Below are positions 12,687-62,663 of a DNA stretch of 64,000 nt, in pieces. The stretch's first letter is position 1. Every line of letters begins with the position of its first letter. Made by a program: the position numbers and the translations under genes. Where the stretch lies: assembly GCF_002214805.1 (NCBI RefSeq), contig NZ_CP019914.1, positions 620,001 to 684,000 on the forward strand. The letters are read 5' to 3'. The DNA comes from Brachyspira hampsonii. GTDB taxonomy: Bacteria > Spirochaetota > Brachyspiria > Brachyspirales > Brachyspiraceae. Below the pieces are notes generated by a model that saw only the letters and a program-made list of their open reading frames with translations, made no database searches and had not been told where the DNA came from.

Positions 12687-13730
12687 ATGACAGATAATTT
12701 GAATAACAGCGAAAATACGAATGAAATCAGTAATGAAATAGCCAGTGCGAGCAGGGATTTACAGGCTATATCAGAAGCCTCAAAAATGGCTCTTGATGTT
12801 GTAAATGCTATAAAAAATGAAATAAAAAAGGTAATAATTGGGCAAGAAAACATGCTCGATAAACTTCTATTAGGAATTATATGCGATGGGCATGTGTTAT
12901 TAGAAGGAGTACCGGGACTTGCAAAAACATTAACCGTAAAATCATTGGCAAGCACAATAGATGCAAGCTATAAAAGAATACAGTTCACACCGGATTTGCT
13001 TCCTGCTGATATAGTAGGTACTGAAATTTATGATATAAAAAATTCTGTATTTCTTCCTAAACAAGGACCTATATTTTCTAATATAATATTAGCAGATGAG
13101 ATAAACCGTTCGCCTGCTAAAGTACAGTCAGCACTTTTAGAGGCTATGGGAGAACATCAGGTTACTATAGGAGATAAAACATATAAACTTCCTGATGTAT
13201 TTTTGGTATTAGCCACTCAGAACCCTATAGAACAGGAGGGAACATATCCTCTTCCTGAAGCTCAGGTTGATAGATTTATGCTTAAAGTTATAGTAAAATA
13301 CCCTACTAAAAGTGAAGAAAAAACTATAATAAAAAACATGTCATCTTCCAAACCGGCAGAATTAAAACCTATAACAACTATAGAAACTATAGAAAAATTA
13401 AGAAAATTAGCCAATCAAATTCATATAGAAGAAAGACTGATCGATTATATAGTGAACATTATAGATGCGACAAGAAATCCTAAAGATTATAAACTTCAAA
13501 GCGAATACATAGAATACGGAGCTTCTCCAAGAGCAGGAATATATTTGACTAAAGCCGCAAAAGCAAATGCTATGATGCAGGGCAGAGGATTTGTAATGCC
13601 TGAAGATATAAGAGCTGTTGCCTATGAGATATTAAGACACAGAATAAGCGTAAGCTATGAAGCACAGGCTGAAAATGTAACAAGCGATATGATTATAGAA
13701 AATCTGCTAGCAAATATAAATGTGCCTTAA
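12687..13730 (+). CDS. MoxR-family AAA+ ATPase
   Basis: A 347-residue cytoplasmic AAA+ ATPase with chaperone-like roles in cofactor insertion or complex assembly. Visible are Walker A as GVPGLAKT (near residue 74), Walker B as ILADEINRSPAKVQSALLEAMGE (near 134), sensor 1 (LATQNPIEQEGTYPLPEAQVDRFMLK) and an arginine-finger-like region further on. The start has GAGGA eight bases upstream. Next to it is the BatD-like gene, but the usual DUF58/VWA genes are absent; instead the 3' end of this gene is the first unit of a tandem array (see repeat entries). Confidence 0.9.
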   Translation: MTDNLNNSENTNEISNEIASASRDLQAISEASKMALDVVNAIKNEIKKVIIGQENMLDKLLLGIICDGHVLLEGVPGLAKTLTVKSLASTIDASYKRIQFTPDLLPADIVGTEIYDIKNSVFLPKQGPIFSNIILADEINRSPAKVQSALLEAMGEHQVTIGDKTYKLPDVFLVLATQNPIEQEGTYPLPEAQVDRFMLKVIVKYPTKSEEKTIIKNMSSSKPAELKPITTIETIEKLRKLANQIHIEERLIDYIVNIIDATRNPKDYKLQSEYIEYGASPRAGIYLTKAAKANAMMQGRGFVMPEDIRAVAYEILRHRISVSYEAQAENVTSDMIIENLLANINVP

Positions 13731-13760
13731 AATATTAGTTTATAAAAATGATTGATTGTT

Positions 13761-13790
13761 AAAGCCTGATTATTAATTTAATCTGGCTTT
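13761..13790 (+). terminator. Intrinsic terminator of moxR (first unit)
   Basis: AAAGCC (13761-13766) pairs with GGCTTT (13785-13790) with an inner GATTA...TAATC stem, followed by T-run. Repeated in each later unit of the tandem array. Confidence 0.75.
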
Positions 13791-13815
13791 TTTATTATAT
13801 ATGATTAATTGTAAT

Positions 13816-13876
13816 ATAAAAATTGTGAGCGTCTGCTAAGTTTACTTGGCAGACATTTTCAGCGAACAATTTTTAT
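13816..13876. repeat. 61-bp palindromic element, copy 1
   Basis: Outer arms ATAAAAATTGT and ACAATTTTTAT bound a 61-base unit with an inner stem GTCTGC (13831-13836) / GCAGAC (13849-13854). Same length and outer arms as four other copies in this window. Confidence 0.8.
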
Positions 13877-14008
13877 TAGCAATAATAAAAAAATCTGCTT
13901 GCAAATATAAATGTCCCTTAAAATATTAGTTTATAAAAAAATGATTGATTATTAAAGCCTGATTATTAAGTTAATCTGGCTTTTTTATTATATATGATTA
14001 ATTGTAAT

Positions 14009-14069
14009 ATAAAAATTGTGAGCGTCTGCTAAGTTTACTTTGCAGACATTTTCAGTGAACAATTTTTAT
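14009..14069. repeat. 61-bp palindromic element, copy 2
   Basis: Second copy in the moxR array, same arms and length; one loop-flank base differs (TTGCAGAC for GGCAGAC). Confidence 0.8.
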
Positions 14070-14198
14070 TAGCAATAATAAAAAGCCTGCTTTCAAATAT
14101 AAATGTTCCTTAAAATATTAGTTTATAAAAATGATTGATTGTTAAAGCCTGATTATTAATTTAATCTGGCTTTTTTATTATATATGATTAATTGTAAT

Positions 14199-14259
14199 AT
14201 AAAAATTGTGAGCGTCTGCTAAGTTTACTTGGCAGACATTTTCAGTGAACAATTTTTAT
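14199..14259. repeat. 61-bp palindromic element, copy 3
   Basis: Third copy in the array with the same 61-base length and outer arms. Confidence 0.8.
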
Positions 14260-14548
14260 TAGCAATAATAAAAAAATCTGCTTGCAAATATAAATGTTCT
14301 TTAAAATATTAGTTTATAAAAATAATTGATTATTAAAGCCTGATTATTAACTTAATTGGGATTTTTTAATAACTTAAATATATATTCATTTTTTAATTAT
14401 ATTAAGATATAATGTTATCTTTAACATTTTACTATCAAAACAGATTAAACAACTTAACATAATATTTTTTATATAAATTCTATAAAGCAATTTTTGTAAT
14501 TACCGAATATATAATATAATAAATTTATAAGATAATGGAGTGTATTAT

Positions 14549-62433: not shown

Positions 62434-62494
62434 ATAAAAATTGTTCGCTAAAAATGTATAGCAAATGAATTTGCTATATGCTCACAATTTTTAT
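62434..62494. repeat. 61-bp palindromic element, copy 4 (inverted)
   Basis: The arms match those at 13816-13876 read on the opposite strand, and the length is again 61 bases. Here the inner stem is TATAGCAAAT/ATTTGCTATA instead of GTCTGC/GCAGAC. Contained in the 340-base gap after the TPR gene. Confidence 0.8.
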
Positions 62495-62540: not shown

Positions 62541-62601
62541 ATAAAAATTGTTCGTTAAAAATCTATAGCAAATGAATTTACTATACGCTTATAATTTTTA
62601 T
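62541..62601. repeat. 61-bp palindromic element, copy 5 (inverted)
   Basis: Second copy in tandem, 107 bases downstream of copy 4, same length; arms have one change (ATAATTTTTAT). Confidence 0.8.
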
Positions 62602-62663
62602 ATTAGGTTTTCTAGTATTTTAGAATTATTATTTTCTTATTATTGCTAATAAAAAACAAAAAA

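Follow-up and report, generated by a model that had tools for sequence, protein, structure and literature searches.

We describe a family of dispersed hairpin repeats, here called element E, whose copies have a fold in common and not a sequence. A covariance model search found ~107 copies at ~50 places in a 3.19-Mb Brachyspira genome; with the same model, 24 of the 25 Brachyspira genomes searched had the element (0 to ~105 copies each), against none of the 16 genomes from other genera. Rfam gave no match up to E = 1 for five loci with copies of the element, and a known RNA family was therefore rejected; no earlier description was found in the open-access literature. The family is real, genus-specific and apparently undescribed. 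We consider it rather probable that element E is a dispersed repeat, non-autonomous and confined to the genus, with a one-strand structure, acting as transcript RNA or as single-stranded DNA (ssDNA). The analysis was made of genome searches and of selected genome stretches; the window, the whole stretch of 64,000 nt with which it began, holds five copies in two arrays.

Window copies and the common fold

A sequence-only reading of the window had listed five palindromic elements, three on the plus strand and two on the minus strand, with outer arms in common. All five are real, and each is exactly 61 nt long (Table 1). In RNA folding four of them share one structure (z from -4.5 to -6.5), whereas the copy at 62541 has decayed, its left arm being damaged and the family fold lost. 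The paired inner-stem change between loci, GTCTGC/GCAGAC at locus 1 versus TATAGC/GCTATA at locus 2, is present as had been noted. The complement strand of the element likewise folds well. An intrinsic terminator was rejected, as there is no T run after the complete hairpin; in a loose terminator scan one of the three array 1 copies reached the threshold, with its inner stem only.

Table 1. Features of the window (nucleotide positions of the window) and Cas13-type arrays (kb of the genome)
Feature	Position	Strand	Remarks
Element E, array 1 copy 1	13816..13876	+	Complete fold, GAGC/GCGA core; z -6.5
Element E, array 1 copy 2	14009..14069	+	One inner mismatch CTTTGCAG; GTGA replaces GCGA; z -4.9
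Element E, array 1 copy 3	14199..14259	+	z -5.8
Element E, array 2 copy 2 in reading order	62434..62494	-	z -4.5
Element E, array 2 copy 1	62541..62601	-	Decayed left arm AAAAATTATAAGC; z -1.3
F: 3′ end of MoxR-like gene (12687-13730) and terminator	13697..13795 (ends approximate)	+	Flank repeated with E
Right end TAGCAATAATA(AAA) of element E	13877..13890	+	Next F starts after it; likewise for the other two copies
F′: final element-free copy of F	14273..14371 (approximate)	+	Runs on into native downstream DNA
Remnant of a further right end TTTTTATTAGCAATAATAAGAAA (family D2)	62633..62655	-	Directly after tRNA terminator
Three Cas13-type arrays	22.7, 61.6, 1269.5-1271.0 kb		~30-nt spacers; minimal direct repeat GTCTCGATACCCTACTCAATGTAGGAAAGCGGGAT

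The true repeat unit of locus 1 (190-193 nt) consists of the 3′ end of the upstream gene, the terminator of that gene and the element; that of locus 2 has 107 nt. Array 1 reads F-E-F-E-F-E-F′, with 99 nt of flank F matched again past the last element, and an empty site is seen in L060. The copy at 62434 lies downstream of tRNA-Lys/tRNA-Glu on the minus strand. Downstream of the MoxR-like gene, relatives (L056, L061, L062, L064 and L066) carry another motif, ~TTAGACGTATAAA..AAAAAAGTTCCC, up to three times per locus.

The fold has an 11-bp outer stem, GA opposite GA, GC paired with GC, a 10-bp inner stem and a 4-nt loop; a one-sided bulge of 7 nt, near-constant in length, is located on the 3′ side. 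In the seed alignment (16 rows) 96.2% of cells were paired, versus 38-46% with the partner slid, and two-sided changes were seen in 16 of the 23 pairs. The covariation score was 0.534 (shuffles, 0.181; slid, at most 0.104), a value inflated in the outer stem since the seed rows were chosen partly by pairing. Inner-stem pairing was taken from a search pattern that specified only the outer arms, which matched 25 copies in the genome and is free of this selection bias. The inner stems of this set are mostly paired and have several sequences (GTATAGC/GCTATAC, GTCTGC/GCAGAC, ACCTGCT/AGCAGGT and GTCTAGT/ACTAGAC are examples), while some copies have decayed. Furthermore, a structural scan showed the same core within unrelated outer arms GCTATAAAC, AGTGATAAAC, ATTAAAAAATC and ATCAAAATAGT. 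Thus further copies exist and both stems covary across many of them; selection for a hairpin (or inheritance as a hairpin), which the sequence-only reading had put forward, is supported far past the two window loci.

Some copies (genome positions 1174408, 1219692, 2932291 and 3041465) have small GC-rich hairpins, such as CGCCAAAGGCGG or GCCAAAGGCACGCAAAGCG, nested in the loop or the bulge. One copy with exact arms was also seen in an 11.2-kb viral contig of IMG/VR (L348:4404-4463); the second arm type matched no viral contig.

Strand signals and turnover

Among 90 distinct copies, G-U pairs outnumber A-C pairs on the element strand by 95 to 31 (p 1e-8 if cells are taken as independent, which they are not fully). 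A palindrome working solely as duplex DNA is expected to have no such asymmetry. Orientation was counted relative to open reading frames (90 aa or longer) rather than to annotation: the upstream gene is on the element strand in 41 of 50 clusters, and the 30 clusters located in co-directional gene gaps divide into 29 sense and 1 antisense (p 6e-8). Many copies lie directly 3′ of a stop codon or just 5′ of a ribosome-binding site. No half-genome split fitted the strand of the element to replichores (p 0.55). Taken together, wobble asymmetry and sense orientation indicate a hairpin that is important on one strand; they point to a single-strand role, as RNA or ssDNA. One could argue, for the orientation, that the sense bias possibly arose by selection following insertion and not from function.

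Site comparison with B. hampsonii (G003), G009 and G013 showed both gain or loss and changes in copy number. Sites are empty at 877321 and 251065 in G009 and G013, and at 1174408 in all three genomes. Copy number is 7 versus 1, 1 and 1 at 1147206; 7, 6 and 1 at 2655282; 3, 2 and 1 at 2155885; and 1 versus 4 in G009 at 1502661. Array units stop at the right end TAGCAATAATA and start in upstream DNA, often in the 3′ end of a gene.

Direct repeats of 36-123 nt flank the element in 8 of the 50 clusters (0.5 expected), starting 0-15 nt past the element and ending 0-22 nt ahead of it; in one of the eight, cluster 682434 (the window's array 2), what is repeated is the left part of the element itself and not a gene end. 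In this AT-rich DNA neither a precise insertion boundary nor a target duplication of constant length could be drawn, and outside the eight clusters flanking duplications are not definable. The solo orthologue of 2155885 in G009 has no duplication, so arrays can arise after insertion; the same case weakens the candidate explanation of the long flanking repeats as plain target-site duplications.

With these patterns in mind, we suggest that element E would spread into transcribed gaps as a hairpin, in REPIN-like manner. At its right flank, a strand end may prime synthesis at a nearby upstream AT-rich microhomology; such priming, with template switching or repair of a break at that end, would duplicate flank F and lead to arrays. 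Within a transcript the element could persist as a hairpin of a 3′-UTR, of an intercistronic region or of a CRISPR repeat loop, while antisense copies would not be retained or would never be made.

Cas13-type arrays, Rpn genes and rival explanations

The direct repeats of the three Cas13-type arrays (L214:2988-4540, which is the array at 1269.5-1271.0 kb, L216 and L220) vary from 35 to ~126 nt, many of them having ~117-126 nt, and the types are mixed along one array. The long repeats are long because element E and a small GC-rich second hairpin are situated in the repeat loop; the outer hairpin predicted for the repeat is retained. The 1270-kb array adjoins genes for Cas1, Cas2 and Cas13 (PADLOC Cas13gr13, E 2e-200) and belongs to a type VI locus, with its cas genes at L342:4847-7861 and L214:1429-2675. 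The gene next to the Cas13 gene codes for an 889-aa protein (L342:2172-4841) with no PADLOC or NCBIfam match. Relatives L245 and L056 likewise have the element within array repeats, and in the last repeat of L056 one element is apparently nested in another. Presence of element E in Cas13-type direct repeats of up to ~125 nt raises the question of how repeats of this kind are duplicated and processed.

The genome has ~22 Rpn (TIGR01784) genes. In six intact ones the stop codon TGA is the T-GA of the element core; one more has the element right after its stop, and three have a decayed element. By chance, ~0.4 clusters would be expected on Rpn genes. The genes bearing the element fall into three separate clades of the Rpn tree, which does not favour descent from one ancestral insertion into an rpn gene, and near-identical elements are present on genes from clades far apart in the tree (270841 and 2684242). 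The association might mean that Rpn nucleases, of the PD-(D/E)XK type, recognise the hairpin and cut at its right end, thus moving and amplifying it. Counts of TIGR01784 genes and of the element correlate (rho 0.87, n = 16 genomes), and E. coli RpnA is a nuclease promoting RecA-independent recombination (PMC5350276). Genome size and descent, however, confound the counts, which have outliers (15 Rpn hits and 2 elements in G006; 1 and 17 in G012), the majority of copies are far from any rpn gene, and E. coli rpn genes, with a toxin-antitoxin/anti-phage role, are reported to lack terminal repeats or target duplications (PMC10327210). Also, the element's left arm is similar to the 3′ end of rpn, and homology-directed landing could account for the link between the two. 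On balance we regard action of Rpn on the hairpin as unlikely. The same doubt attaches to an extended version, with element E as the nucleic-acid partner of Rpn at rpn 3′ ends and a right-flank cut leading to RecA-independent insertion, flank duplication, arrays and insertion into Cas13 repeat loops. By association only, Rpn is the leading candidate for a mobiliser: a lead, not the agent. Elements on Rpn stops offer a concrete candidate substrate for this widespread family of nucleases, which has long been labelled putative transposase.

The strand signals would also be accounted for if element E were a cis-acting RNA, affecting mRNA stability, processing or protein binding, that spread through ordinary duplications and was retained by selection in the genes under its regulation, without being mobile. 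Sense bias, strand-specific wobble and the positions after stop codons and ahead of ribosome-binding sites all agree with this; but neighbour genes have no common function evident, close relatives have empty sites, copy number changes fast and the element occurs inside CRISPR repeats, which together make an immobile RNA improbable. Yet another source of paired changes is correction of quasi-palindromes by template switching at replication, with the structure unselected. One orthologue (L325 in G013, corresponding to genome position 531313) has indeed turned into a perfect palindrome. Such correction, however, would remove both the GA/GA mismatches and the bulge, while the left GA is kept in 79 of the 90 distinct copies; it predicts neither an excess of G-U over A-C nor an orientation bias. 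As the whole explanation it is thus very unlikely, though part of the pairing may come from it.

Comparison with known systems

MITEs are, like element E, small, dispersed, palindromic, noncoding and insertion-polymorphic between species. They differ in that the outer arms of element E are not one fixed terminal inverted repeat and its flanking repeats vary in length. No full-length element or parent transposon with ends of element E was found among genome matches. Recognition by a transposase in its usual form, the other half of what the sequence-only reading had proposed, is therefore not upheld: the arms are not a fixed terminal repeat, the Y1 enzyme is absent (see below) and no full-length element was found. 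As for Rpn itself (YhgA-like; putative transposase in TIGR01784), several gene stops overlap the element, yet most copies are unlinked to rpn.

Closer are REP sequences and REPINs, also short extragenic hairpins, non-autonomous and present in about a hundred copies; element E, too, folds as a single strand. The Y1 enzyme is held to move REPINs. Y1_Tnp (PF01797, RAYT) was absent from the genome and from 15 other Brachyspira genomes, with positive controls detected, and RAYT/Y1 transposition was rejected. RNA-mediated (retro) insertion, attractive for the sense bias and the flanking repeats, was rejected as well, since reverse transcriptase (PF00078) is absent from the genome. With both enzymes missing, element E fits neither the definition of a REP/REPIN nor any known retroelement. 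In P. fluorescens, REPINs form tandem clusters that include flanking sequence, and some are located beside a linked enzyme gene (PMC3116915); element E is similar on both counts. On the other hand, it consists of a single hairpin whose core is GA/GA and whose outer arms are exchangeable, where a REPIN has two conserved REPs, and its strong sense bias sets it apart.

BOX, RUP, ERIC and Correia repeats are intergenic, ~60-110 nt long and predicted to fold on transcription, as is element E; its modular copy-number variation is like that of boxB (PMC3049150). No relation to repeats of this type, in sequence or through an IS, was found, and element E differs by its conserved internal non-Watson-Crick core and by its 29:1 sense orientation in co-directional gaps. 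What matters here is that a large bacterial repeat family inherits a fold and not a sequence, bears single-strand and transcription-sense signals, and does so without a Y1 enzyme. In our best reading, element E works like the structure-defined repeats of REPIN/BOX type and differs from them by its conserved non-Watson-Crick core and its exchangeable arms.
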